A stretch of 64,000 nt of DNA from Vicinamibacterales bacterium (GTDB taxonomy: Bacteria > Acidobacteriota > Vicinamibacteria > Vicinamibacterales > Fen-181): contig DASXVO010000059.1 of the NCBI GenBank assembly GCA_036504215.1, positions 248,001 to 312,000 of the forward strand, given 5' to 3'. Below, one piece after another: positions 1,247 to 21,859 of the stretch; the stretch's first letter is position 1; the number at the start of each line of letters is the position of its first letter. Position numbers and translations under genes: made by a program. The notes under the pieces were generated by a model. It was not told the origin of the DNA. It did not search any database and worked only from the letters and a program-made list of their open reading frames with translations.

Positions 1247-3706
1247 CTAGTGTCCCTTGGTCGGCGTGGTTCCGCGCGGCGGCGCGTTCTTCACGTACTT
1301 GTCGAACCAGCCGATCATCTCGGCCAGCGTGTGCAGTACCGATTCGCGGCCCGTGTAGCCATGCGCCTCGTTCGGCAGCGTGACGTACCGCACCGTGGCG
1401 CCGTGCCCCTTGAGGGCCATGTAGAACCGCTCGGACTGGATGGGGAAAGTGCCCGAGTTGTCGTCCGCCTCGCCATGAGTCAGCAGGATTGGGTCCTTGA
1501 CGTTGTTGGCATAGTAGAAGGGCGACATCCTGGCGTAGACCTCCGGCACCTCCCAGAAGGTCCGCCTCTCGGCCTGGAAGCCAAAGGGTGTCAGCGTCCT
1601 GTTGTAGGCGCCGCTACGGGCGATGCCGGCGCGGAACAGGCGCGAGTGCGACAGCAGGTTGGCTGTCATGAACGCCCCGTAGCTGTGACCGCCCACGCCG
1701 ATGCGATCGCGATCGGCGACGCCCAGGTCGACGACCTTGTCGATGGCGGCTTCTGCACTCGCCACGAGCTGGTCGATGTAGGTGTCATTGGCCGTCTCCC
1801 CGGCCCCGACAATCGGCATCGTCGGGTTGTCGAGCACGGCGTAGCCCTGGGTGAGGAAGAACATGTGCGACGGCCCCGTGTAGGTCGTGAAGCGGTACGG
1901 CGAGCCACTCACCTGGCTGGCGAGGCTCGGGTCGGTGAACTCGCGCGGATACGCCCACATGACGAGCGGCAGCCGCTCGCCCTTCTTGTAGCCGGGCGGC
2001 AGGTACAAGGTTGCACTCAGCTTCACGCCGTCCTTGCGGTCGTAGGTCAACAACTGCCTTTCCACTCCCGCGAGCTGCGGCGCCGGGTCCTTGAACTCGG
2101 TGAGCGCGCGCCTGCCCTGCTTCGCCAGGTCGCGCACGAAGTAGTTGGGTGGCGCCTTCACCGTTTCGTACCGTGTCAGCAGCGTCTTGCCGTCGTCGGT
2201 CAGGAGGTTGACCACCTGCTCGTAGCTCTCCCCCTCGCACTGCCAGATCCGCTCGGTGTCACCCGTCTTCAGGTTGTACCGATCGAGGAACGGCCTGTCG
2301 CCCCTGGGAGAAGCGCCGTCGCCGTTCAGGTAGATTGAATCGACCACCTGCACGATGGTGCCAGCCTCGGCACCGGAGCGGCCTCGGCCGCCATTGCCGC
2401 CACTCGACCGGGGCCGCACGACCGGGTGTCCGGGGTCCTTGTACCGATCCTCTGAGCTCACCTCCCAAATCTTGCGCGCCGCTCCACCGTCGAGCACCCA
2501 CGTCCGCCGCAGGCGACGGTTCCGCTCGAATTCGGTCACGAGCACGACGTTCTTGTCGGTCCACGCAACGCCCTCGAAACGCTGCTCGAGCTTGATCAGT
2601 TCCGACGGCTCACCGGCGAATGGCGCCTTGAGCAGCATCACCTTGTCGCGGTACGGCACCTTGTTGCGCAGGTCGCCGCCGTCGAGCGCCTCGGCCCACG
2701 CGAGCGTCGCCGGATCGACGGGATTCCACTTGAAGGCCCGCGGTCCGGTCTCGACCCCGCGCATCGGTACGTGTTCGCCGGACGGGACGTCGGCGACCGA
2801 TCGCACGACCTTGCCGGCCTTCGTCCACAACTCGACGTCCTTTGGAAAGTCGCTCGAGGGCACGAGATGCGAGAACGGCCGCTTGATGCGAGAGACGAAC
2901 AGGAATTCGCCGTTCGGAGACGGCTCCGCCTGGTCGTAGATGCCCGGCTTGCCAACCAGGGTGCGGACACCCGTGGTCGCATTCACGAAGGCCAACTGGC
3001 TCGTGAAGTAGTACTCGAACAGCGCATCGTCGTGGGAGGTCTTGAGCAGGTCCTCGTAGGTGCTGACCGGAGAAGTCTTGCCGAGGTTCTCCTCGACGTT
3101 CGGGCCTTCCGGCACCTGCGGGGCCTTCGGCGAAGCCCCTCGCGTCGCCACGACGAACTTGCACAGCAGGGCGGTGTTGGCGGTCCAGTCGCAGGCCGCG
3201 CCGGACGTGGCGTTGAGCGTCGGCGTGGTGAGCAGCTTCCCGACACCAGTCGTCGCGTCCGCCACCCACAGGGCGATGCCGGATGCCTTCGTCTCAGTGA
3301 ACGCGATCCGCCTGCCGTCCGGCGAGAAGCCGAGCCAGCCGAGCCTGGCGCCCGCCGGCACGACGACCTTGACCGTCTTCCCGTCCGCGATACGCTGCAG
3401 CGCGATGCCGGTCAGCGGTTGCGTGCGGTGCGGGCCATTCGTCTTCGGATTGACGCGGGCCCCGGCCAGGCGGAACATCGGCTGCGAGAGATCGGCCACC
3501 GTCGGCATGCTGGCCCGGTCGAGCAGCGCGAGTTGCTGGCGCGACGGGCTGAGCACCACGGTAGGAACCGGTTTGGCGTCGAGGATGTCGACAACGGTCT
3601 TCGGCGGCAACTGGTACTTGGTCTGCGCCAGCGCGTCGCCCTGCGCGGCGAAGTCCACGCACACGACGGCGAGCGCCAGCGCCCAGAGGGATCTGGAATT
3701 ACACAT
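1247..3706 (-). CDS. Secreted S9 family peptidase (prolyl oligopeptidase fold, glutamyl-endopeptidase-like)
   Basis: This is an 819-residue exported serine peptidase. A signal peptide (about residues 1-27, ending ALA) leads into a long beta-propeller region with TolB-like SPDG motifs, and a C-terminal alpha/beta-hydrolase domain begins around residue 560. The catalytic triad is visible: Ser675 in GGHSYGAF, Asp748 in HGEADDNSG and His782 in NEAHGY. The length and the GHSYGAFM motif fit the S9 branch that includes glutamyl endopeptidase-like enzymes rather than classical prolyl oligopeptidase. The substrate cannot be read from sequence. A GGAG lies 8 bases before the ATG. The DUF5117 protease lies downstream on the same strand, and rubrerythrin is divergent. 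Confidence 0.9.
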   Translation of the reverse strand: MCNSRSLWALALAVVCVDFAAQGDALAQTKYQLPPKTVVDILDAKPVPTVVLSPSRQQLALLDRASMPTVADLSQPMFRLAGARVNPKTNGPHRTQPLTGIALQRIADGKTVKVVVPAGARLGWLGFSPDGRRIAFTETKASGIALWVADATTGVGKLLTTPTLNATSGAACDWTANTALLCKFVVATRGASPKAPQVPEGPNVEENLGKTSPVSTYEDLLKTSHDDALFEYYFTSQLAFVNATTGVRTLVGKPGIYDQAEPSPNGEFLFVSRIKRPFSHLVPSSDFPKDVELWTKAGKVVRSVADVPSGEHVPMRGVETGPRAFKWNPVDPATLAWAEALDGGDLRNKVPYRDKVMLLKAPFAGEPSELIKLEQRFEGVAWTDKNVVLVTEFERNRRLRRTWVLDGGAARKIWEVSSEDRYKDPGHPVVRPRSSGGNGGRGRSGAEAGTIVQVVDSIYLNGDGASPRGDRPFLDRYNLKTGDTERIWQCEGESYEQVVNLLTDDGKTLLTRYETVKAPPNYFVRDLAKQGRRALTEFKDPAPQLAGVERQLLTYDRKDGVKLSATLYLPPGYKKGERLPLVMWAYPREFTDPSLASQVSGSPYRFTTYTGPSHMFFLTQGYAVLDNPTMPIVGAGETANDTYIDQLVASAEAAIDKVVDLGVADRDRIGVGGHSYGAFMTANLLSHSRLFRAGIARSGAYNRTLTPFGFQAERRTFWEVPEVYARMSPFYYANNVKDPILLTHGEADDNSGTFPIQSERFYMALKGHGATVRYVTLPNEAHGYTGRESVLHTLAEMIGWFDKYVKNAPPRGTTPTKGH

Positions 3707-3857
3707 CGGACGTCTCCAAGGGGCATCGGGAAGGGGGCGCTAGGATGGCGCGATTCTACACTCTCGGTTCGTGGTACGCTACGCACCGGTATATCACCCG
3801 CTCCAACCCGGAGATGGGGCGACCTCGCAGTCATCACACCACCACGGAGGAGGGACG

Positions 3858-4358
3858 ATGGCGACACAGGAGAATTTGAAGGCGGCGTTTGCTGGCGAAA
3901 GCCAGGCGAATCGCATGTATCTGGCGTTTGCGAAGAAGGCTGACAGCGAAGGTCTGAAACAGGTTGCGAGACTGTTTCGGGCGGTCGCGGCAGCCGAAAC
4001 GGTGCACGCGCTCGCCCACTTCCGCGTGATGGGCGGCGTGAAGGGCACGATTGACAACCTGAAAGCGGCCATCGCGGGCGAGCACTACGAATTCACCGAG
4101 ATGTACCCGACGTTCATTTCGGAGGCCGTGTCCGAAGGGAAGAAGCCGGCCGAGGTGAGCTTCAAGAACGCCAACGCGGTCGAGGAAGTCCATCACGCGC
4201 TCTACGGTGAGGCACTGGCGGCCGCGGCTGCGGGGCACGACCTCCCGGACGCGAAGATGTACGTCTGCGACGTCTGCGGATACACGGTTGCGGGTGAAGC
4301 GCCGGACGTCTGCCCAATTTGCGGAGCTCGCCACGAGCGCTTCACGGAAGTCGTCTAG
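3858..4358 (+). CDS. Rubrerythrin
   Basis: This 166-residue cytoplasmic non-haem iron protein is a peroxide reductase that protects against oxidative stress in anaerobic or microaerobic cells. The N-terminal four-helix ferritin-like domain carries the di-iron glutamates (Glu14 in AGES, a second in AAETVHA, then GEHYEFTEMY and EEVHHALY). The C-terminal rubredoxin-like domain has two CxxC pairs (CDVC and CPIC). The ATG at 3858 was chosen because GGAGGAGGG sits just upstream; the reading frame is open further upstream, but those residues do not belong to the family. The gene stands alone between a divergent S9 peptidase gene and a convergent tricorn-like gene. Confidence 0.95.
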   Translation: MATQENLKAAFAGESQANRMYLAFAKKADSEGLKQVARLFRAVAAAETVHALAHFRVMGGVKGTIDNLKAAIAGEHYEFTEMYPTFISEAVSEGKKPAEVSFKNANAVEEVHHALYGEALAAAAAGHDLPDAKMYVCDVCGYTVAGEAPDVCPICGARHERFTEVV

Positions 4359-4359
4359 G

Positions 4360-4382
4360 AAGGCGCAGCACCGGGCGCTTTT
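4360..4382. terminator. Candidate bidirectional terminator between rubrerythrin and the tricorn-like gene
   Basis: AAGGCGC (4360-4366) can pair with GCGCTTT (4375-4381), with one G-U pair and an 8-base loop, followed by TTTTC. It fills the 29-base gap between two convergent genes. The stem is short, so the call is tentative. Confidence 0.4.
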
Positions 4383-4387
4383 CTCGT

Positions 4388-7300
4388 CTACTTCTTCTGA
4401 TAATCCGGATAGGCCGGCCTCTTCGGCGTGACGACCGGGTGTTTTGCCAGTTCGGCCATCACCACCTCGATGGCCTTGTCGAGCTGTGGGTCCTTGCCCT
4501 GGCGCACGAGTTCGGGATCCATCTCGACCTCGATATCCGGGGCGATCCCGACGTTCTCGACCTCCCACTGGCTCGTCGTCGCGTTCCACACGCCGATGCT
4601 GGGCGCGGTGACCGACCCGCCGTCCATCAGCGGCGGGTAGCCGCCGATGCCGACAAGGCCGCCCCACGTGCGCTTGCCAATCAATGGGCCGAGGCCTGCG
4701 CGCTTGAACAGCCACGGCATCGCGTCACCGCCCGATCCCGCCTCCTCGTTGATGATCATCGCCTTCGGGCCGAAAATGCCCCCCTGCGGCTGGAAGCTGT
4801 CCGCGCCGTCGCGCGGCGCGACGCCGGTGACGAGCTTCCGCTGCAAGTACTCGATGATGTCGGTGGCCAGCGCGCCACCGCCGTTGAACCGCTCGTCCAC
4901 GATGACGCCCTCCTTGCCGACCTGCGCGAAGAAGTAGCGGTTGAACGCCGTGAGCCCGCCGCCAGCGGTGTCTGGCATGTAAACGTAAGCGATGCGCCCG
5001 TGGCTGACCGAATCGACGTGCCGGCGATTGCCTTCGATCCACGCGAGGTTGCGCAGCGCCGTCTCGCCCGGCACCGGCACCACCGTGACCTCACGGGCAC
5101 CGTCGCCATTCGGGCTGGCCCCGACTTTCAGCAGGACGCTGCGTCCCGCCATTCCTTCGAAGTACGAATGGACGTTCTCCGTGGCGCGCACGTCCCGGCC
5201 GTTGACCGCGAGCAGGTACTCACCTGCCTTGACGTTGACGCCGGGCTGGGTCAGCGGCGCGCGAAGCTGCGGGCTCCAGTTCTCCCCGTTGTAGACACGC
5301 GCGAACCGGTAACGGCCGTTCTCGATCGTGTAGTCGGCGCCGAGCAGCCCCGTGGACACTCGCTTCACTTCGGGCATCTCGCCGCCGCCGACGTAGAGAT
5401 GGCCGACCGTCAACTCGCCGAGCATCTCGTTGAACAGGTAGTTGAGATCCGCGCGGCAGGCGAGCTGGTCCAGGTACGGCGCATACTTCTTCTCGGTGGC
5501 CACGAGATCGAGGCCGTGATAGTGCGGGTCGTAGAAGAACTCACGCTCGATCCGCCAGACCTCGTGGTACATCTGCCGCCACGCGGTGCGTGGATCGACA
5601 CGCACCTCGATGCTGTCGGTCTGGAGTGCGCCCGACCCGGCGCCGCCGGCGGACGGTACGCTCGGCGCGGGCGATGCGCCGCCACCCTGGGCCAGCGGCT
5701 TCAGCGCGGTGATGAACCAGCGCTCGCCCTGCCGGTAGAGCATCTTCTCGCCGTTGGCCGACATGACGAAATCGCTGACTCCGCTCGTCACGACGTCGGA
5801 CTTCCGCGCCTTCAGGTCGAAGCGATGCACGGTCGCGCCGCGTGGCGCGTCCGGTCCTGGCGCGGGTGATTCGATCGCCAGCAGCACGCCGGCCTTGGCC
5901 ACTTGAAGATCGGAATAGCGTCGGGCGGGCATCGGCACGGCAAGCACGCGCTGCAGGATGTTGTCGAAATCGATCTTGACGGGAACGGCCTTCGGCGCGG
6001 GCTTCGCCGCGTCGGCCTTCTGTGGCTCACTGCCCGCCGCGGGCGGCTTGGCTGCGTCCGCCGCCGGTTTCGCGGGATCGGCCTTGTCATCGGCCGCCTT
6101 CTCCTCGTCGCTCTCGGGCGAGAACGGCGACGGCTCATCCTTCGACAACACGACGAGATAGATGCTCCGCGAGACGGGGCGTGTCGAGGCATGGAGATCG
6201 AACTCCATGGAAGCCCCCGAGTCGGTGCTCGCGGTGAAGTACAGGAACTTGCCGTCCTTGTCGAAGACGGGACTGCGCGCGTCGCTCATGCCGTCGGTCA
6301 ACTGGGTCACCTTCCCGTCGGCCAGCGAGCACAGGTAGATCGCCGAGAGGCCGCTCCGCAACCGCTTCGTGTATGTCAGCCACTTCGAGTCCGGTGACCA
6401 TGCGGGAGTGAGGTTGCTGTTCCTCTCGGCGGTGTCGGTCCTGACGGGTTTCTTCGTCTCGACGTCCACGTACCACAGTCCGAGGTGGGCGTCGTTGTAC
6501 GCAATCTTCCGGCTGTCGGGCGACCACGTCGGCGACGAGTAGAACGTGGGCCGCTCGGCGAGAGCAATCTTGACGACCTCTCCCGATGCGTCCTGATTCC
6601 TGATGTGCAGCGCGTACTCGCCGGACTCGTCGGAGAAGTACGCGATTCGCTTGCCGTCGGGTGACCAGGCCGGGTCGCGCTCCATCACGCCGGTTGTGTT
6701 CGTGATGTTCCGAACATCGCCCTTTTCCGCCGGAACCGTCACGATCTCGCCGCGCGCCTCGAACACCGCCCGTGCCCCGCTGGGCGAAATGCCCGCGTTC
6801 TCGAGCCTGTTGCCCGCCTTCACGAGCCGCTCGCGCACCTCCGGCAGGTCGCCTGCCACGGTGATTGCCACCGTCCGCGCCTTTCCGGTCTTCAGGTCGT
6901 ACAGCCCGATGGCTCCGAACTGTTCATAGGCGATCGCGTCGGGACCGGCGGACGCCGCCTTGAAGTCGAGGCCGCGATTCTCGACGACCTGCGTGAGCCT
7001 CTTGGTCGGCACGTGATAGGAGAACAACGTGACCGGTCCATTCCGGTCGGACAGGAAGTAGATGGTATCGCCCACCCACATCGGGTTGAACTCGTTCGCT
7101 TTCTCGTGCGGCAGTGTCTCGACACGCGATGTGGCCAAAGACACGATCCGGATCGACGTCGCCTGACCACCGCGGTAGCGTTTCCATGCGCGGAACGCCC
7201 TGGCCTTCGGAACGTATGCCAGGCTCAACCCGTCGGCGGAGTAGCTCCCCTCGAACCCCTGAGGCAGCGGCAGCTTTTCCTCCGGACCGCCGGTCACCGG

Positions 7301-7717
7301 CACAGTGAACAACTCCGCGAACCGGGAGTACGCAGTGCGTGTCGAGCTGAAGAGGATGCGCTTGCCGTCCGGCGTCCATCCGAGCGCAAGGTCTGCGGCC
7401 GGATGCCACGTCAAGCGCTTCGGGACGCCGCCTGCGGCCGGCACCACGAACACATCCACGTTGCCGTCGTACTCCCCTGTGAACGCTACCTCGGTCCCGT
7501 CCGGCGAGAAGACCGGACCAGTCTCGATACCCGGTCCGGACGTCAGCCGGATCGCCGCTCCGCCCTCGCGCGGCACCGTCCAGAGGTCGCCGGCGAAGAC
7601 GAAGACGATGTGTGTGCGATTGATGGTTGGCTGCTGGAGTAGCAGCGGAGCCGACGGCGTGGCTGCCGATGCCGCCGCCCAGAAAGACACGCACAGGGCC
7701 GCAAACAGGTGGCGCAT
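4388..7717 (-). CDS. Tricorn-like S41 family protease with beta-propeller and PDZ domains
   Basis: This is a 1109-residue exported homologue of the tricorn protease. A signal peptide (to about residue 19) precedes two WD40/TolB-like propeller blocks rich in SPDG/SPDS repeats (residues ~25-520). A low-complexity Ala/Lys/Pro linker follows (~545-600), then a tricorn C1 region with His718 in MYHEVWR, a PDZ domain (~790-880) and an S41 catalytic domain with Ser995 in AGSGGD. In the tricorn family the His of the C1 domain and the Ser of the S41 domain form the catalytic dyad. Tricorn-like enzymes degrade peptides released by other proteases. The start has TGAGGAG before the ATG. It converges on rubrerythrin and is not in an obvious operon. 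Confidence 0.92.
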   Translation of the reverse strand: MRHLFAALCVSFWAAASAATPSAPLLLQQPTINRTHIVFVFAGDLWTVPREGGAAIRLTSGPGIETGPVFSPDGTEVAFTGEYDGNVDVFVVPAAGGVPKRLTWHPAADLALGWTPDGKRILFSSTRTAYSRFAELFTVPVTGGPEEKLPLPQGFEGSYSADGLSLAYVPKARAFRAWKRYRGGQATSIRIVSLATSRVETLPHEKANEFNPMWVGDTIYFLSDRNGPVTLFSYHVPTKRLTQVVENRGLDFKAASAGPDAIAYEQFGAIGLYDLKTGKARTVAITVAGDLPEVRERLVKAGNRLENAGISPSGARAVFEARGEIVTVPAEKGDVRNITNTTGVMERDPAWSPDGKRIAYFSDESGEYALHIRNQDASGEVVKIALAERPTFYSSPTWSPDSRKIAYNDAHLGLWYVDVETKKPVRTDTAERNSNLTPAWSPDSKWLTYTKRLRSGLSAIYLCSLADGKVTQLTDGMSDARSPVFDKDGKFLYFTASTDSGASMEFDLHASTRPVSRSIYLVVLSKDEPSPFSPESDEEKAADDKADPAKPAADAAKPPAAGSEPQKADAAKPAPKAVPVKIDFDNILQRVLAVPMPARRYSDLQVAKAGVLLAIESPAPGPDAPRGATVHRFDLKARKSDVVTSGVSDFVMSANGEKMLYRQGERWFITALKPLAQGGGASPAPSVPSAGGAGSGALQTDSIEVRVDPRTAWRQMYHEVWRIEREFFYDPHYHGLDLVATEKKYAPYLDQLACRADLNYLFNEMLGELTVGHLYVGGGEMPEVKRVSTGLLGADYTIENGRYRFARVYNGENWSPQLRAPLTQPGVNVKAGEYLLAVNGRDVRATENVHSYFEGMAGRSVLLKVGASPNGDGAREVTVVPVPGETALRNLAWIEGNRRHVDSVSHGRIAYVYMPDTAGGGLTAFNRYFFAQVGKEGVIVDERFNGGGALATDIIEYLQRKLVTGVAPRDGADSFQPQGGIFGPKAMIINEEAGSGGDAMPWLFKRAGLGPLIGKRTWGGLVGIGGYPPLMDGGSVTAPSIGVWNATTSQWEVENVGIAPDIEVEMDPELVRQGKDPQLDKAIEVVMAELAKHPVVTPKRPAYPDYQKK

Positions 7718-7908
7718 GGTGCTCCTCAGAAGAAGTGAACAGCACAGCGTAGCACGGCGAGAAACGCCGGGTGGGGAATGCTGGTACGCCAGAACCTGTC
7801 GCGGAGCCCCGCCAACTCGTCAGCGTGAAGCGCCGCGACGGCGGCCCGAACGACCTCGCCGCGATTCTTGGGCGAACGGATGCTCTCGGCCGTACAATGG
7901 CCCACGGC

Positions 7909-8466
7909 ATGTCCATGTACAAGTCTCTCGGCGACCGGCAGCACCATCATCTTGGCAACCAGGCAACGGCCAGCATCGATGCGCAAGAAGAAGTCGCCGA
8001 CTTGCCAGGCAGCGTCTTCTTCAGCGCCAGAGTGGGCGGCGATCCGGCGGCCCGTCCGCCCGGCCTGTTCTACAAGGACCCGACCGGATCCACCCGCCGG
8101 GTGCTGATCACCAAGGCCGGTGCGTTTCAGTTCTCGCCGCTCGTCGATCTGGAGAGATTCGCGCAATTCTGCGAGATCCTGTTCGTGCCAGAGGTCGATC
8201 CCCGGGCCTGGGCCGCCGCGAAGGACACCGCGAAGCACAGTCCCGTGCCGGTCGAGTTCGCCGAGTTGGAGCCCGGGACGTTCTTCACCGCGCTAGGCTC
8301 AACCGAGAGCCTGTCGTCGCAGCGCCGGGGCGTCTATCGGCTCGGGCGTGCCGGCACCATCCAACGTCTGTTGAAGGATGCGACCCAGGGGTTGGTGTGG
8401 TCCGGGTCGATTCCCAAGGATCGTTTCGGGAATTTCGGGGAGCGCCTCACCATCGACGTGGACTGA
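7909..8466 (+). CDS. Hypothetical protein
   Basis: I do not recognise this family. The protein is about 185 residues, without a signal peptide or membrane segment, and has a histidine run (QHHH) near the start. The reading frame stays open upstream to 7771, but that part has no start with a ribosome site. A TACAAT box at 7893-7898 could be a -10 element, in which case ATG 7909 or 7915 would be close to leaderless. ATG 7897 would fall inside that box. No Shine-Dalgarno sequence is visible at any candidate. The frame is long and not contradicted by an overlapping real gene, so a coding function is likely but not certain. Confidence 0.55.
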   Translation: MSMYKSLGDRQHHHLGNQATASIDAQEEVADLPGSVFFSARVGGDPAARPPGLFYKDPTGSTRRVLITKAGAFQFSPLVDLERFAQFCEILFVPEVDPRAWAAAKDTAKHSPVPVEFAELEPGTFFTALGSTESLSSQRRGVYRLGRAGTIQRLLKDATQGLVWSGSIPKDRFGNFGERLTIDVD

Positions 8467-14209: not shown

Positions 14210-14992
14210 ATGGAACTGCGGATGTACCAGATCGATGCGTTTGCCGATCGGCTCTTCAGCGGGAACCCGGCGGCCGTCTGTCCGCTCGAGTCGTGGCTTC
14301 CGGACGAGGTCATGCAGCAAATCGCGGCGGAGAACAACCTCGCCGAGACGGCGTTCTACATTCGGCACGACGGCGGCTTCGATCTCCGCTGGTTCACGCC
14401 GGCTGTCGAAGTCGATCTGTGCGGACACGCCACGCTGGCCGCGGCGCACGTGGTCTTCACCCACGATTGCTTTCCCCACGACACGATCCAGTTCACGTCG
14501 AAGAGCGGGATTCTGCGCGTTCGGCGCGACGGCGATCGGCTCGTGCTCGACTTTCCCGTGGACACGGTTGAACCGGTGACCGTGCCGCAGATCCTGATCG
14601 ACGCGCTCGGTCGCGAGCCCATCGAGTCCTACAGGGGCAAGACGGATTACATGCTCGTCTACGGCGTCGAGGAGCACGTGGCCGGACTCACACCCGACCT
14701 CGTCGATCTGGCCACCGTGCCGGCGCGCGGCATCATCGTCACGGCACCCGGCCGCCAGGTGGACTTCGTGTCGCGGTTCTTCGCACCGCAGGTCGGCGTG
14801 CCGGAGGATCCCGTGACCGGGTCGGCACACACGACGCTGACGCCCTACTGGGCCGCCCGCCTCGGCAAGAACGAGTTGACGGCCCGCCAGTTGTCGAAGC
14901 GTCAGGGCAGCCTGCGCTGTACGCTCGTCGGCAACCGCGTCGACATCGCGGGTCGGGCCGTGCCGTATCTGGAAGGCACGATCACGATCTAA
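14210..14992 (+). CDS. PhzF family isomerase
   Basis: This 260-residue cytoplasmic protein has the duplicated hot-dog-like fold of the PhzF/diaminopimelate-epimerase-like family. Family marks are FSGNPAAVC (residues 16-24), the catalytic Glu46 in NNLAETAF, the DLCGHATLAAAHV block near residue 70 and EDPVTGSAH near residue 205. PhzF itself isomerises a phenazine precursor, but most family members have unknown substrates and no phenazine genes are present here. ATG 14210 was chosen for the GGAGG just upstream. The stop codon overlaps that of the convergent AIM24 gene. Confidence 0.92.
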   Translation: MELRMYQIDAFADRLFSGNPAAVCPLESWLPDEVMQQIAAENNLAETAFYIRHDGGFDLRWFTPAVEVDLCGHATLAAAHVVFTHDCFPHDTIQFTSKSGILRVRRDGDRLVLDFPVDTVEPVTVPQILIDALGREPIESYRGKTDYMLVYGVEEHVAGLTPDLVDLATVPARGIIVTAPGRQVDFVSRFFAPQVGVPEDPVTGSAHTTLTPYWAARLGKNELTARQLSKRQGSLRCTLVGNRVDIAGRAVPYLEGTITI

Positions 14993-16071
14993 TCGGATCC
15001 GAGGATCCGTCCGAGCCCGACATTCCCGAGCACCGACCCTTCTTCCTTGCCCCCCTTGCCGATGCCGGGGATGGCCTTGTAGATCCGGTCCGCGAGCCGG
15101 CTGAGCGGCAGCGACTGGAGCCATACCTTGCCGGGCCCGGTCAGTGTCGCGAAGAAGAGTCCTTCGCCGCCGAAGAGCGCCGTCTTGACCCCGCCGACCA
15201 ACTGCACATCGTAGTTCACCGACTGCTGGAGGGCGACAATGCAGCCGGTGTCGACACGAAGGGTTTCACCGACCGCCAGGTCGTAGGAGTGAACCGTGCC
15301 GCCCGCGTGCGCGAACACCAGGCCGTCGCCGTCGAGTCTCTGCATGATGAAGCCCTCACCGCCGAACAGGCCCACCCCGATCTTCTTCTGGAAGGCGATG
15401 CCAATCGACACGCCCTTGGCCGCGCAGAGATACGAGTCCTTCTGGCAGATGAGCGTGCCACCCAGCTTGGAGAGATCCATCGGCAGGATCTTGCCGGCGT
15501 ACGGCGCGGCGAAGGCGACGCGCTCGACACCGCGACCACCAGCGTTGGTGAACACCGTCATGAACAGGCTCTCGCCGGTGAGGAGGCGCTTGCCCGCACC
15601 GAGAAGCGCGCCCATGAGGCCGCCCTGCTGCTGCCGGCCGCTGCCGTCGCCAAACACCGTTTCCATCTGGACCCCGCCGGTCATGAACATCATCGCGCCC
15701 GCCTCGGCGACGACGCTCTCACCGGGATCCAGGTAGATCTCGACGAACTGCATCTCGTTCCCGTACACCTTGAACTCGATTTCGTTCGCACGCCGGTCGG
15801 GCGCGGGTGCCGCCGGGCTGACGGCCGGGCCCAATGCTGAGCTGGCTGCCTGGCTGGACGCTGGACCGGCGACCGGAGGTGGCGCAGCCAGATGCGAAGC
15901 AAGCTGGGGTACTGCCGATACGGGCGTCCAGTTCGTCATGCCGGCGGTGAACACGAGCGTGCCGCCGTCGGCGGCCCCGGTCTGAACGCGCCGGACGATC
16001 TCTTCCTCACTGACAGGGCCCACCTGCTGTCCACCCACCGCGATGTACCACTGCTGCTCGGTCCCGGGCAT
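14989..16071 (-). CDS. GYF_2-AIM24 (TIGR00266) family protein
   Basis: This is a 360-residue cytoplasmic protein. Residues ~6-60 form a GYF_2-type module (WYIAVGGQQVGPVSEEEI) that usually mediates protein contacts. An Ala/Pro linker (~62-95) follows. Residues ~100-330 are an AIM24 domain, with NEIEFKVYGNEMQFVEIYL at its start and repeated Gly-rich strands such as GLFGGEGFIMQRLDGDGLVF. The biochemical role of AIM24 proteins in bacteria is unknown. AAGGAGGAG precedes the ATG. The 3' end overlaps the stop of phzF by 4 bases on the opposite strand. Confidence 0.88.
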   Translation of the reverse strand: MPGTEQQWYIAVGGQQVGPVSEEEIVRRVQTGAADGGTLVFTAGMTNWTPVSAVPQLASHLAAPPPVAGPASSQAASSALGPAVSPAAPAPDRRANEIEFKVYGNEMQFVEIYLDPGESVVAEAGAMMFMTGGVQMETVFGDGSGRQQQGGLMGALLGAGKRLLTGESLFMTVFTNAGGRGVERVAFAAPYAGKILPMDLSKLGGTLICQKDSYLCAAKGVSIGIAFQKKIGVGLFGGEGFIMQRLDGDGLVFAHAGGTVHSYDLAVGETLRVDTGCIVALQQSVNYDVQLVGGVKTALFGGEGLFFATLTGPGKVWLQSLPLSRLADRIYKAIPGIGKGGKEEGSVLGNVGLGRILGSD

Positions 16072-16262: not shown

Positions 16263-16300
16263 AACACTCCATGTTGACAATTGCAGTGTTCAATTGTAGA
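16263..16300 (+). promoter_or_regulatory. Candidate promoter and operator upstream of the multihaem cytochrome gene
   Basis: In the 302-base gap before the cytochrome gene there is a TTGACA box (16274-16279) and a TGTAGA box (16295-16300), 15 bases apart. Two dyads overlap it: AACACT (16263-16268) with AGTGTT (16285-16290), and ACAATTG (16278-16284) with CAATTGT (16291-16297). Such placement would let a regulator block RNA polymerase. The remainder of 16072-16373 shows no gene. Confidence 0.5.
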
Positions 16301-16373
16301 GTCGTCGGTCGCCAAGTTCGCATCGTCCTACTAGCCCTGAACTAGTCGGGGCCTGACTTGAAAGGGAGTTCTT

Positions 16374-17315
16374 ATGCGCCTACCGTATCGGTTGCTGGCG
16401 CTGGCAGGGTTGGTGGTGCTGTTGACAAGCGGACTGGCCGCTGCCCAGGCGACACCACCGGCGGCGGCATGGAGTGCCTCCGACTGCCAGGCGTGCCACG
16501 AGAGAGTGCTTGGGCCACCATTCGCGCAGTCGCGCCACGCGAAAGTCGACCACAGCTGTGCGAACTGCCACGCCAATGTCGCTGAGCACGCCAAGGCTCA
16601 GATGAATGGCGACAAGAACGGTCCGGTGCCGTCGTTGAAGAAGCTGACCGCGCGTCAGGTCAACGACACCTGCCTGAAGTGCCACGAGAAGGCCAACCAG
16701 GCCAACTACATCTCCAGCATGCACGCGCGCCGCAATGTGGCCTGCACGTCCTGCCACAGCGTGCACGATGCGAAGTCGGTCAGGGCACAGCTGAAGACCA
16801 AGGTCGACTCCGAGACCTGCTTCACGTGCCACAAGTCCGAGCGCGCCAAGTCGCAGCGCACGTCGCACCACCCGGTCCGCGAGGGCAAGATGAACTGCAC
16901 GAGCTGCCACAACCCGCACGACGGCAGCCGCCCGAAGATGATCCTGGCGGATTCGGTCAATGACCTCTGCTACAAGTGCCACGCCGAGAAGCGCGGCCCG
17001 TTCCTGTTCGAGCACGCACCTGTTCGCGAGGAGTGCACGACCTGCCACGAGCCGCACGGGACGAATCACCGGCGCCTGCTCGCGCAGAAGCTTCCGAATC
17101 TCTGCTGGAACTGCCAATTCACGGGTTCCGGCCACTTCGCGCAGAACACCGGTGCCGACAACCACGGGACCGAACAAGGCAAGTACCAGGTGGCCCCGAG
17201 CGGAACCACGAACTTCCCGACGACCAACTCGCGGATGATCGAGAAATCGTGCAAGAACTGCCACGTGAACCTGCACGGCACCAACTCGCCTTCGGGCGCT
17301 GCTTTCTTGAGGTAA
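16374..17315 (+). CDS. MtrA/DmsE-type decahaem-like c-type cytochrome
   Basis: This 313-residue periplasmic cytochrome would carry electrons through an outer-membrane barrel. A Sec signal peptide ends near residue 24. There are nine canonical CxxCH haem sites (first at residues 38-42, last CKNCH near residue 296). A tenth CxxC at residues 244-247 is followed by Gln248 instead of His (CWNCQ). Length and site number match the MtrA, PioA and DmsE family. The gene for a matching MtrB/PioB barrel begins 3 bases after its stop, and its GAGG ribosome site lies at the end of this gene, so the two are co-translated. No outer-surface MtrC-like cytochrome or quinol oxidase is in the window, so the direction of electron flow is not shown. 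Confidence 0.9.
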   Translation: MRLPYRLLALAGLVVLLTSGLAAAQATPPAAAWSASDCQACHERVLGPPFAQSRHAKVDHSCANCHANVAEHAKAQMNGDKNGPVPSLKKLTARQVNDTCLKCHEKANQANYISSMHARRNVACTSCHSVHDAKSVRAQLKTKVDSETCFTCHKSERAKSQRTSHHPVREGKMNCTSCHNPHDGSRPKMILADSVNDLCYKCHAEKRGPFLFEHAPVREECTTCHEPHGTNHRRLLAQKLPNLCWNCQFTGSGHFAQNTGADNHGTEQGKYQVAPSGTTNFPTTNSRMIEKSCKNCHVNLHGTNSPSGAAFLR

Positions 17316-17318
17316 CCC

Positions 17319-19640
17319 ATGAAACGAGCAACCTCCATGATTGCGCTCGTCGCCATGGGACTCTTCATGGCGACCTCTTTCGCGGCGGCGCAGGACAAAC
17401 CCGCCACCACCGCCGGCGGTCAGGTGACCATCCAGACGCTGACGGTCGATGACATCTCCTCGTCGAAGTTCCGGGAATACCGGGACGTGCCGAAGGGCGT
17501 ATCGATGCCGTTCGTCAATCTCTTCACGACGAACTCGGCGCTCGACTTCAACCTGAGCGCCTTCAACGTGGGGCAGCAGGACCAGCAATACAAGGGCTGG
17601 GCGAACTTCAGCTGGATGGACTTCGGGTTCGACTACAACCAGGTCGTCCACCGCATGGGCAACGACGCTCACGTGATCTGGGCCGAAACGGCGCCGGGCG
17701 TATGGAGCATGCCGGCCTCGTTGCGGCAGTACTACTCCGACCGGGTCGACGCGACGCCAACCTCGGGCCGGGTGTATAGCTTCTACAACAACCTGCTGGC
17801 ACCGTCGTTCGCCGCTGCCGGCACGGTCGACCTGACGTCGCTGCGCAAGCGGGGCCTCTACGACTTCGACTTCAGCAAGAACCTGCCGTTCAACTTGAGC
17901 TTCACGTATACCCGCGAGCGCAAGGCCGGCTATCGCGGCCAGGGTGGCGGCGACATCATCGCCGGTCCCGTGTCACCGGTGGTTGACGTCCCCGAGACGC
18001 TGAACGAGCTGACGCAGGACTACGCGATCAAGTTCGAGTACAAGCTGAAGACCGGCAACGTCCACGCCGCGCTCAACAGGAACGTGTACACGAACGACCA
18101 GAACAACCAGTTGATCGACAACCCGTTCAGGCCGTCCGACCTGGCGTACAAGGCGGCGGTGGGGTCCACTCCGGCCTCCGGCGGCCCCGGGACGATCATG
18201 ATCACCGGCATGCCGGACAACAGCATGATGAACGAGTCGTTCGGCGCGCTCTTCAAGTTCGCCAAACAGACCCGCGTGGCGGCCGATGTGGCCCTGGGGC
18301 AGTACACCCAGAACCAGAACTACCTTCCCTACACGTCGAACACAACGGTGTTGACGGGCAGCAACGCGCCGGCGTACCTCACGTCGTCGCTCCAGCAGCC
18401 GTCGTTCAACGGCAAGATGGACACCACTACGTTCAACGTGTGGTTCTCATCACGGCCGGCCGAAAACCTCGGGATCAGGATGAGCTATCGGAGCTGGGAC
18501 CTGACGAACAAGACCAGCCGGTACATCATCAACGGCGACCTGTCGGCGGCGCCGGATCGTTCGTGGGCGGCAGCCGACGCACCCAGCGCGGACGCGCCCT
18601 ACGGCCACCCGACTGCGGTCAACTACGACAACAGCAACAAGCGCTTCCAGGGGTCCGTCACGTACGACGTGGGAGCCCTGACGCTCGAGGGCCTGTATCG
18701 GGCGGCGAGCCTCAAGCGGACGTACCGCGAAGCCGAATCGGGCACGGACAGGGGCTACACGCTGGCGGCCACGTACCACGCCAAGGACTGGCTCGGCCTG
18801 CGGCTGAGCTACGACGACGCCAAGCGGACGGCCGAGGGCACGACCGTCTACGGTTTCCAGACCGACGAAGCCGAGCGCCGCTCGAAGCGCACGGTGTTCG
18901 ACGTCGAACTGTCACCGATGAACAACATGGGTGTGACGCTCTCCTACTTCCGCCGGGACGTTGCCTACCCGAACCGTCCGAACCGGGTGGCGGTGTCTGG
19001 CGGTGTGCCTGTCGTCGGCGCGCAACCGATTCCCGGAACGCCCAGCGGTCTGCTGAGCGCGAAGTACGACAGCTTCGCGGTGGACTTCGACTACGCGGTG
19101 TCCAACAAGGTTGAGCTGACGGCCTTCTATCAGTACGAGAAGGACGTGACCGTCAACCAGTGGGTCTCCAACCCGACGGCACCGACATACGGGCTGAACA
19201 ACCTGTGGAACCACTCCGGCCAGGACAAGACGAACACGTTCGGCCTGGGCGCGGTGTTCCACGTCGTCCCCGACAAGTGGACCGTGACCGTCAACGTCAC
19301 GGATCAGAAGGTGGACGGGTTCGAGGACATCAACGCGACCCCGACCGGCACTTACGCGCTGGGCCGCACGGCGTATCCCCAGTATCTCAACCCGGCAGCC
19401 GTCTGGCCGATCAACGACTGGGATGACACGCACCTCACCACGGTCATCGCGCAGTTGGAGTACAGCCTCAACAAGTCCTGGAAGCTGACCGGCGGCTACT
19501 GGTACGAGAAGTACACGTACGGTGACGCCTGGACGAGCGGCACGACGATGTTCCCGCAGGCGACGTTGATCTTCATGAAGCCGGACAACGGCAACTACAA
19601 GGCGAACGTCGTCTACGCCAAGCTGAACTACCGGTTCTAA
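17319..19640 (+). CDS. MtrB/PioB family decahaem-associated outer-membrane beta-barrel protein
   Basis: This 773-residue outer-membrane porin would enclose the cytochrome encoded just upstream. A signal peptide (~1-24) is followed by alternating amphipathic strands with aromatic girdles throughout (for example NLSFTYTRERKAGYRG and LTGGYWYEKYTYGDAW), and the chain ends in a strand finishing with Phe (YAKLNYRF), as outer-membrane barrels do. The segment GNVHAALNRNVYTNDQ near residue 250 resembles family members. It is somewhat longer than Shewanella MtrB. I see no N-terminal CxxC of the kind described for some MtrB proteins. Spacing of 3 bases to the cytochrome gene indicates one operon. Confidence 0.88.
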   Translation: MKRATSMIALVAMGLFMATSFAAAQDKPATTAGGQVTIQTLTVDDISSSKFREYRDVPKGVSMPFVNLFTTNSALDFNLSAFNVGQQDQQYKGWANFSWMDFGFDYNQVVHRMGNDAHVIWAETAPGVWSMPASLRQYYSDRVDATPTSGRVYSFYNNLLAPSFAAAGTVDLTSLRKRGLYDFDFSKNLPFNLSFTYTRERKAGYRGQGGGDIIAGPVSPVVDVPETLNELTQDYAIKFEYKLKTGNVHAALNRNVYTNDQNNQLIDNPFRPSDLAYKAAVGSTPASGGPGTIMITGMPDNSMMNESFGALFKFAKQTRVAADVALGQYTQNQNYLPYTSNTTVLTGSNAPAYLTSSLQQPSFNGKMDTTTFNVWFSSRPAENLGIRMSYRSWDLTNKTSRYIINGDLSAAPDRSWAAADAPSADAPYGHPTAVNYDNSNKRFQGSVTYDVGALTLEGLYRAASLKRTYREAESGTDRGYTLAATYHAKDWLGLRLSYDDAKRTAEGTTVYGFQTDEAERRSKRTVFDVELSPMNNMGVTLSYFRRDVAYPNRPNRVAVSGGVPVVGAQPIPGTPSGLLSAKYDSFAVDFDYAVSNKVELTAFYQYEKDVTVNQWVSNPTAPTYGLNNLWNHSGQDKTNTFGLGAVFHVVPDKWTVTVNVTDQKVDGFEDINATPTGTYALGRTAYPQYLNPAAVWPINDWDDTHLTTVIAQLEYSLNKSWKLTGGYWYEKYTYGDAWTSGTTMFPQATLIFMKPDNGNYKANVVYAKLNYRF

Positions 19641-19671: not shown

Positions 19672-19700
19672 GTGGGGGCGGTCTTCGAACCCGCCCCTAC
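19672..19700. terminator. Candidate hairpin terminator between the mtrAB-like genes and prolyl oligopeptidase
   Basis: GTGGGGGCGG (19672-19681) pairs with CCGCCCCTAC (19691-19700), a 10-base stem with one G-U pair and a 9-base loop. It overlaps the stop codon of the convergent peptidase gene. There is no T-run, so termination is only plausible. Confidence 0.45.
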
Positions 19701-21859
19701 TTCGCCCATCCAAACTCCGCCGGCAGCGTCATCTTCAGCTCGCGCAGCAGGAAGCCGTACATATCCGCGCGCTCCTCGATGATCTTGTCGGTCGGCTTGC
19801 CCGCGCCGTGCCCCGCCTTGGTCTCGATCCGAATCAGCACTGGCGCCGGCCCGGCCTGCGCGGCCTGCAGCGTCGCCGTGAACTTGAAGCTGTGAAGCGG
19901 CACCACCCGGTCATCGTGATCGGCCGTCGTCACCAACGTGGCGGGGTATGTGGTGCCCGGCTTGATGGTGTGCAGCGGGGAGTACTTCATCACCGTGTCG
20001 AAGTCTTCCTTGTTCTTGTCGGGCTGTCCGTAATCCGACCGCCACGCCCAGCCAATCGTGAACTTGTCGAAGCGCAGCATGTCCATCACGCCGACCGCCG
20101 GGAGCGCGGCTCCGAACAGATCCGGCCGCTGCGTGAGGCACGCGCCGACGAGGAGCCCGCCGTTGCTGCCACCCTGGATGGCGAGCTTCGGTGTAGAGGT
20201 GTATTTCTCGCGGATCAGGTACTCGGCTGCCGCGATGAAGTCGTCGAACACATTCTGCTTGGTCTTCAGCCGTCCCGCGTCGTACCACTCCTGGCCGTAT
20301 TCGCCGCCGCCGCGGAGGTTTGCCACGGCGTAGACACCGCCCATTTCGAGCCAGCCGGCGGCCGCCGGCGTGAAGCCTGGGAGGGTGGCGATGTTGAAGC
20401 CACCGTAACCGTACAGCAGCGTCGGGTTCTGTGCGTTGCGGTCGAGGCCCTTCCGATACGTGAGGAACATCGGGATCTTCGTGCCGTCCTTCGACGGGTA
20501 GAACACCTGTACGGTCTCGTACCGGCTTGGATCGAACTTCAACGACGGCTTCCGGTGCATCGTGCTCGCGTGCGTCGCGAAGTCGTAGCGGTAGATCGTC
20601 GTGGGATAGAGATACGAGCCGAAGGAATAGAACGTCTCCGTGTCCTTCCGTCGCCCCGTCAACCCACCGACGCTGCCGAGCGTCGGCATCGCGATCGCCT
20701 GCCCTGCCGTTCCATCCAGGCTGTAGAGACGAACAGTGTGGTGCGCGTCGGTCATCCAGAGCGTGACGAACTGGTTGTCGACCATGGTGACGGCCTCGAG
20801 CACCACCTTGCCTGGCGCCTCCGAAACCAGCGTCTTCCACCCGGCAGGCTCGGGCTTGCCGAGCGTGATGGCCACGAGGCGGAACCGCGGCGCGTCCTGG
20901 TTGGTGAGCACGTAGAAGGTCGGACCATCGTTGCCGACGACGGTGTACGTCGCGTCGAAGGCGTCGAGGAACGGCTGGATCTTGCCGGCCGGGTCCTGCA
21001 GATCGCGGACGAACACGCGGTTGCGATTGTCGGTGCCTTCCGTCTGCACGACGACCAGGAACCGGCCGTCCTCGGTCACGTCGGCTCCGAATCCCCAGTC
21101 GGGCTTGTCCGGCCGCTCGTAGACCAGCGGGTCCTTGTCCTGCGTGGTGCCCAGTTTGTGGAAGAACACCTTCTGGTTCTTGTTGAGTTCCTGGAGCGCA
21201 TCGCCGGCCTTCGGCTCGTCGTACCGACTGTAGAAGAAGCCCGATCCGTCCTTCAGCCACGACGCGCCGCTGAACTTGGACCACTTCACGAGATCCGGCA
21301 AGTCCTTCGATGTTGCGACATCCCGGACGCGCCACTCGATCCAGTCGGAGCCGCTCGCCGCGAGCGAATACGCCATATAGCGGCCATCCTCGGTGAACGA
21401 CGTGCCGCCGAGCGCGACGGTACCATCCGCGGACAGCGAGTTGGGATCGATGAGCACCTCCGGCTGTGCGTCGAGCGCCCTGGCCTTGTAGACCATCGCC
21501 TGGCGCTGCAACCCCGAGTTCTTCGAGAAGACGTACCACGCGCCTTCGCGTGACGGCACGCCGTAGCGTTCGTAGTTCCAGATCTCGGTCAGCCGCGACT
21601 TGATCCGGGCGCGATCCGGAATCTGCGCGAGGTACGCGTCGGTCACCTTGTTCTCGGCGTCGATCCACGCGCGCGTGTCCGGCGCGTCCGAATTCTCGAG
21701 CCAACGGTACGGGTCGGCCACCTTCACGCCGAAGAACTCGTCCACCTGTGCCGCTCTCTTCGCGGGCGGATAGGTGTACTTCTGCGGCTCGGCCGCGCGG
21801 GGAGAAGCTGAGAGGCTCATAACTCCAACCAGGATCGCAACGATGTGACGTTTTCTCAT
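19697..21859 (-). CDS. Prolyl oligopeptidase (S9A), exported
   Basis: This is a 720-residue serine peptidase that cuts short peptides after proline. A signal peptide (~1-23) is followed by the N-terminal helix segment YPPAKRAAQVDEFFGVKVADPYRWLE, given here only in part (YRWLE marks the family), then a seven-bladed propeller (~75-430) and the hydrolase domain. The triad is Ser565 in GGSNGG, Asp649 in ADHDDRVVP and His684 in KAGHGAGK, exactly the classical arrangement. Substrate peptides of about 30 residues or fewer are expected from the gated propeller. Together with three M24 peptidases elsewhere in the window it points to use of proline-rich peptides. Confidence 0.95.
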   Translation of the reverse strand: MRKRHIVAILVGVMSLSASPRAAEPQKYTYPPAKRAAQVDEFFGVKVADPYRWLENSDAPDTRAWIDAENKVTDAYLAQIPDRARIKSRLTEIWNYERYGVPSREGAWYVFSKNSGLQRQAMVYKARALDAQPEVLIDPNSLSADGTVALGGTSFTEDGRYMAYSLAASGSDWIEWRVRDVATSKDLPDLVKWSKFSGASWLKDGSGFFYSRYDEPKAGDALQELNKNQKVFFHKLGTTQDKDPLVYERPDKPDWGFGADVTEDGRFLVVVQTEGTDNRNRVFVRDLQDPAGKIQPFLDAFDATYTVVGNDGPTFYVLTNQDAPRFRLVAITLGKPEPAGWKTLVSEAPGKVVLEAVTMVDNQFVTLWMTDAHHTVRLYSLDGTAGQAIAMPTLGSVGGLTGRRKDTETFYSFGSYLYPTTIYRYDFATHASTMHRKPSLKFDPSRYETVQVFYPSKDGTKIPMFLTYRKGLDRNAQNPTLLYGYGGFNIATLPGFTPAAAGWLEMGGVYAVANLRGGGEYGQEWYDAGRLKTKQNVFDDFIAAAEYLIREKYTSTPKLAIQGGSNGGLLVGACLTQRPDLFGAALPAVGVMDMLRFDKFTIGWAWRSDYGQPDKNKEDFDTVMKYSPLHTIKPGTTYPATLVTTADHDDRVVPLHSFKFTATLQAAQAGPAPVLIRIETKAGHGAGKPTDKIIEERADMYGFLLRELKMTLPAEFGWAK

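Follow-up and report, generated by a model that had tools for sequence, protein, structure and literature searches.

The analysed window is a 64 kb stretch of DNA (G000:C59:248001-312000) from a draft assembly of 5.9 Mb in 90 contigs, and feature positions are given within it. An mtrA-like gene (16374..17315, + strand), which encodes a Sec-exported MtrA/DmsE-family cytochrome of 313 aa with nine CXXCH motifs and one CWNCQ, is followed by an mtrB-like gene (17319..19640, + strand), which encodes an outer-membrane barrel of 773 aa with 26 predicted strands. Both reading frames are intact, and the spacer consists of three bases, CCC; these coordinates agree with the earlier note, in which a cytochrome gene was followed 3 bases on by an MtrB/PioB barrel gene. 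A sigma-70-like promoter match, TTGACA-17-TAGAGT (16274..16302, + strand), lies 71 bases before mtrA, but this is a consensus match only (one found vs. 0.5 expected in shuffles). The upstream neighbour, a gene for a protein with GYF_2 and AIM24 domains (14989..16071, − strand), and the convergent downstream neighbour, a gene for a prolyl oligopeptidase of the S9 family (19697..21859, − strand), lie outside the putative conduit. Both flanking genes are on the opposite strand and unrelated to the pair, and thus mtrAB is an isolated two-gene unit. When the 64 kb were scanned, the mtrA-like cytochrome was the sole ORF in the window with at least two CXXCH motifs.

The cytochrome scores above the cut-off of TIGR03508, DmsE family decaheme c-type cytochrome (2e-63, 214.3 bits vs. 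192.2). It carries an N-terminal Sec-type signal peptide, judged by eye, and its first CXXCH is at residue 38 of 313. A profile built from the cytochrome together with 12 relatives matched PDB 6R2Q chain A at 2.5e-80, with NrfB as the next chain (7e-15), and the single sequence matched chain A at 1.4e-41. In the profile alignment, the ten haem-motif positions are co-linear, one to one, with those of chain A. The description 'decahaem-type' in the earlier note holds for these ten positions but not for the motifs that occupy them; because nine are CXXCH and one is CWNCQ, rather than ten intact CXXCH, we do not claim the label 'strict decahaem' for this protein. An AlphaFold2 single-chain model built with 13 sequences was unusable (pLDDT 47.6). 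The dN/dS ratio of mtrA against two orthologues is 0.26-0.27; the gene is under purifying selection.

The barrel protein matches PF11854 (MtrB_PioB) well above the gathering threshold (1.7e-40, 139.7 bits vs. 23) and does not, as the earlier note had allowed, belong to a different outer-membrane family. It falls below the cut-off of the narrower NCBIfam model TIGR03509 (96 bits vs. 240), as does MtrB2, the paralogue encoded on contig C35 of the same genome (166 bits). A profile combining the barrel with 9 relatives matched 6R2Q chain B (2.6e-17) and no other chain. The AlphaFold2 model of the barrel is of medium confidence (pLDDT 61.4) and has 26 strands, the number also found in models of both PioB and MtoB (PMC10654088). 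With this model, Foldseek placed 6R2Q chain B first (1.3e-16, followed by 4e-8), and VIA-align likewise ranked chain B first (Z 17.1, approximately 1 above the next match).

Membership of both families, together with the matches to both 6R2Q chains, supports the reading of the locus as a porin-cytochrome conduit that had been proposed from the letters of the DNA. The window pair is probably an MtrAB-type conduit that lacks MtrC and is fed in trans by complexes encoded elsewhere. Against this reading, the window encodes no linked partner, the proximal histidine of haem 9 is missing, and the NapC/NirT-type cytochrome encoded elsewhere in the genome shows no significant co-occurrence with the pair. 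The pair looks functional, and the capless two-gene kind is already known from iron-oxidising bacteria.

Relatives of the window MtrB were detected in 10 of the 162 genomes of the order at E 1e-20; nine of these are close (at least 48% identity), whereas the one in G042 is distant (32%). The mtrA-mtrB order and the near-abutment of the two genes are kept in relatives, and the pair is nearly always bare, in these ten genomes as well as in three Gemmatimonadota MAGs. No conserved neighbour of the pair was found across seven loci (the window, G002, G007, G050, G055, G056 and G058). In a scan of 84,980 genomes, the closest relatives of the cytochrome were found in Acidobacteria MAGs, mostly at 60-70% identity, one of them labelled Vicinamibacterales, and the next closest in the three Gemmatimonadota MAGs (60-61%); the remaining relatives, at no more than 38%, came mostly from methanotrophs and Betaproteobacteria. 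The tree groups the window copy with that of G058, which belongs to another family (support 97/93), rather than with that of G002, which is of the same genus as the host of the window, and places the Gemmatimonadota copies beside the Acidobacteriota group. These two groupings hint that the pair may have spread horizontally, as has been described for mtrCAB (PMC8805035). A long loop between haems 9 and 10 (43-51 residues between the motifs in the window clade) was considered as a signature of capless MtrA and rejected, because loops of 49 and 52 residues occur in two copies from Burkholderiaceae that have further multihaem genes in the vicinity. In one carrier (G055, L072:224-1279), the window-type mtrA is broken into two frames with four motifs each, and mtrB is intact. 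The Gemmatimonadetes MAG MnB_13 (VEPF01000171.1, L088; Mn-Gemmatimonadetes), which by its title perhaps comes from a manganese culture, also carries the pair (60% identity); its mtrB is divided between two frames. MtrC-less conduits have been studied best in iron-oxidising Proteobacteria; the bare two-gene pair in Vicinamibacterales and Gemmatimonadota extends possible electron exchange with minerals or humics to lineages known mostly from metagenomes.

The genome of the window was searched, by model and by pattern, for possible partners. There was no match to TIGR03507, the model for OmcA/MtrC-family cytochromes, in the whole genome, and no further multihaem ORF in the window, so that the absence of MtrC and OmcA pointed out in the earlier note applies to the neighbourhood and, by this model, to the genome at large. 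The companion claim, that no inner-membrane partner is encoded nearby, is correct for the window, but the genome has candidates on contigs C35 and C59. A genome search for multihaem and CymA-like proteins, which the earlier note had suggested, yielded a NapC/NirT-type cytochrome, an undecahaem cytochrome and a second MtrAB, all on C35 (G000:C35:217.4-226.7 kb; L049:4900-14215). This second set consists of the undecahaem cytochrome, which has a C-terminal hydrophobic segment, a cytochrome b561-type protein, the NapC/NirT-type cytochrome, MtrA2, MtrB2 and FeoB. The same block is also present in G002, G004, G005 (where the pair is more divergent) and G055. MtrA2 and MtrB2 belong to the same two families as the window proteins (38% and 23% identity, respectively), but are accompanied by the undecahaem, cytochrome b, NapC/NirT-type and FeoB genes. 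On the same contig as the pair, about 35 kb upstream of mtrA (C59:218-230 kb), lies an ACIII-like cluster (5-haem, Fe-S/molybdopterin-type, NrfD and mono-haem genes) with genes for a caa3-type oxidase, and contig C7 encodes a four-haem class III periplasmic cytochrome. The RuBisCO large subunit was not found in the genome, and there is one COX1 gene; this combination fits an aerobic organism without a Calvin cycle. An obligate reliance of the pair on the C35-type NapC/NirT cytochrome was considered and is not supported: this cytochrome occurs in 7 of 10 carriers of the pair vs. 62 of 152 other genomes (p = 0.099), and G058, a 98%-complete carrier, has no match to PF03264 (NapC/NirT). Other multihaem genes of the genome include one ORF that encodes 51 CXXCH motifs in 1357 aa (G000:C16:324103-328173; L158:3604-7674), followed by a gene for an apparently exported protein of 447 aa with no Pfam match, and, near the end of contig C20 (L159), a 23-haem ORF (3132-5030) close to an 11-haem ORF on the opposite strand (6276-8411).

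Compared to Shewanella MtrCAB (6R2Q), the window proteins match chains A and B with all ten haem positions co-linear, but MtrC/OmcA is absent from the locus and, by model search, from the genome, and the haem-9 motif is altered. The PioAB conduit of Rhodopseudomonas palustris TIE-1 is functional and has no apparent surface cytochrome (PMC6831781). The window pair resembles it in combining a periplasmic MtrA-type cytochrome with an MtrB/PioB barrel and no surface cytochrome, but differs from PioABC in that its cytochrome lacks the N-terminal extension of roughly 200 aa, there is no adjacent PioC, and the genes do not form part of a phototroph operon. The MtoAB proteins of Sideroxydans and Gallionella are MtrAB homologues without MtrC (PMC8805035) that are tied to mineral oxidation and expressed on magnetite (PMC12016527), and Mto is encoded with MtoD and CymA (PMC10654088). 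The window pair similarly has no MtrC; however, its flanks are unrelated genes rather than MtoD and a CymA-like gene, no partner is linked to it, and its host has no RuBisCO.

If the pair acts as an MtrC-less conduit, the window MtrA would be exported, receive nine or ten c-type haems and thread into the 26-strand MtrB barrel, forming a haem wire across the outer membrane. As a cognate surface cytochrome is lacking, electron exchange with iron, manganese, humics or other redox compounds outside the cell would fall to the outer end of MtrA or else to an unrelated cytochrome. On the inside, small periplasmic cytochromes might link the conduit, in either direction, to membrane complexes whose genes lie elsewhere; the candidates are the C35 pair of NapC/NirT-type cytochrome and cytochrome b, or the ACIII-caa3 chain on the same contig as mtrAB. 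Outward flow, which would provide an extra respiratory outlet for an aerobic heterotroph, is slightly favoured over inward flow, since the host looks aerobic and has no RuBisCO, and since the other MtrAB set adjoins FeoB.

The opposite direction, in which Fe(II) or a reduced mineral would donate electrons that pass through MtrAB and a periplasmic cytochrome c to the caa3 oxidase and so provide extra energy for a heterotroph, falls somewhat short of an even chance. It would be akin to the action of MtoAB and PioAB: the best-studied MtrC-less MtrAB pairs are uptake systems (PioAB, PMC6831781; MtoAB, PMC12016527), an ACIII-caa3 chain is encoded on the same contig as the window pair, and the Mtr system is described as electrochemically reversible in work cited in PMC12016527. 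However, the genome has no RuBisCO, which argues against lithoautotrophy by the Calvin cycle, the pair has no neighbour resembling PioC or MtoD, and the position of the other MtrAB set beside FeoB is a better fit to Fe(II) release. The sequence of MtrA or MtrB does not reveal direction (PMC8805035).

A further candidate for the inner-membrane end of the MtrC-less conduit comes from the relatives. In G007 (MELC01000086.1), the window-type pair lies directly after, and on the same strand as, a Qrc/ACIII-like quinone-oxidoreductase operon (G007:C86, L074:9153-19495) that encodes a mono-haem cytochrome, a QrcA-like 5-haem cytochrome, a QrcB-like protein, an Fe-S protein, NrfD and a cytochrome with four haem sites. 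This operon is itself preceded by a second MtrAB, nearer to the C35 type. Relatives of the Qrc-like module, at about 50% identity or more, are present in 4 of the 10 carriers of the pair and in 6 of the 152 non-carriers (Fisher p = 0.0013, uncorrected for relatedness and for a test chosen after the G007 locus had been seen). An MtrA-type gene was found within the flanking sequence examined around the module in seven of the eight readable loci (G007, G002, G042, G047, G028, G046 and G040), the one without being G041; the contig of G073 ends too soon, and that locus was left out of the eight. The six-gene module was observed near MtrA or MtrAB in seven Vicinamibacterales genomes (L162, L163, L167, L168, L169, L170 and L172). 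Because the Qrc-like module recurs near MtrA genes in the order, a quinone-linked NrfD complex is a credible partner of MtrAB conduits in Vicinamibacterales; for the window pair, the association is indirect. No Qrc-like module was found in the genome of the window at 1e-60, in a scoring of the best 6 of 26 preliminary candidates. We regard as speculative, and rather unlikely, the stronger proposition that the window pair is part of a separate MtrAB clade shared by Vicinamibacterales and Gemmatimonadota, the natural inner-membrane partner of which is a Qrc/ACIII-like quinone oxidoreductase and not CymA. If true, extracellular electron transfer would here be wired in a new way, and the role in the genome of the window would have to fall to ACIII itself. 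The repeated occurrence of a Qrc/ACIII-like complex near MtrA genes puts it forward as a concrete candidate for the inner-membrane partner that is missing and, together with the substitution in haem 9 considered below, is the part of this system worth following.

It is improbable that the pair feeds a dedicated surface reductase instead of minerals, in the way that DmsEF serves DmsAB in Shewanella. The best NCBIfam name of the cytochrome, 'DmsE family', would accord with such a role, but we take this name (TIGR03508) to cover MtrA-type proteins as well. Furthermore, no molybdopterin reductase lies beside the pair in the window, the relatives share no common neighbour, and the molybdopterin-type subunit encoded next to the pair in G007 is QrcB-like, that is, part of a quinone complex.

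The altered haem-9 motif, CWNCQ (TGC TGG AAC TGC CAA; 17103..17117, + strand), spans residues 244-248 according to the codons and the alignment, and belongs to the penultimate haem; the C-terminal haems of MtrA in 6R2Q are those nearest the outside. At this position, all ten relatives of the pair with sequence read there have CXXCH. Codon-level reading of seven Vicinamibacterales orthologues gave CWNCH or CWDCH, with His encoded by CAC; the three Gemmatimonadota copies have CWNCH or CYNCH. H248Q is a one-base change, CAC to CAA, and could be either a substitution private to the window copy or an assembly error, the latter because a single base is involved in a draft assembly of 90 contigs. If real, it would offer a natural test of whether electron conduits can accommodate an altered haem close to the outside. 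The least likely of the alternatives is that the window copy is crippled, with H248Q depriving haem 9 of its proximal ligand, interrupting the wire close to the outer end and marking a gene at the onset of decay. The CXXCH kept in all ten relatives and the one-base nature of the change speak for it; against it, a single consensus error in the draft would explain it equally well, the frames of mtrA and mtrB are both intact, and the dN/dS of 0.26-0.27 gives no sign of decay. Decay of mtrA is thus unsupported, and H248Q and S303T are the only two sites at which the window MtrA alone departs from an otherwise invariant column.
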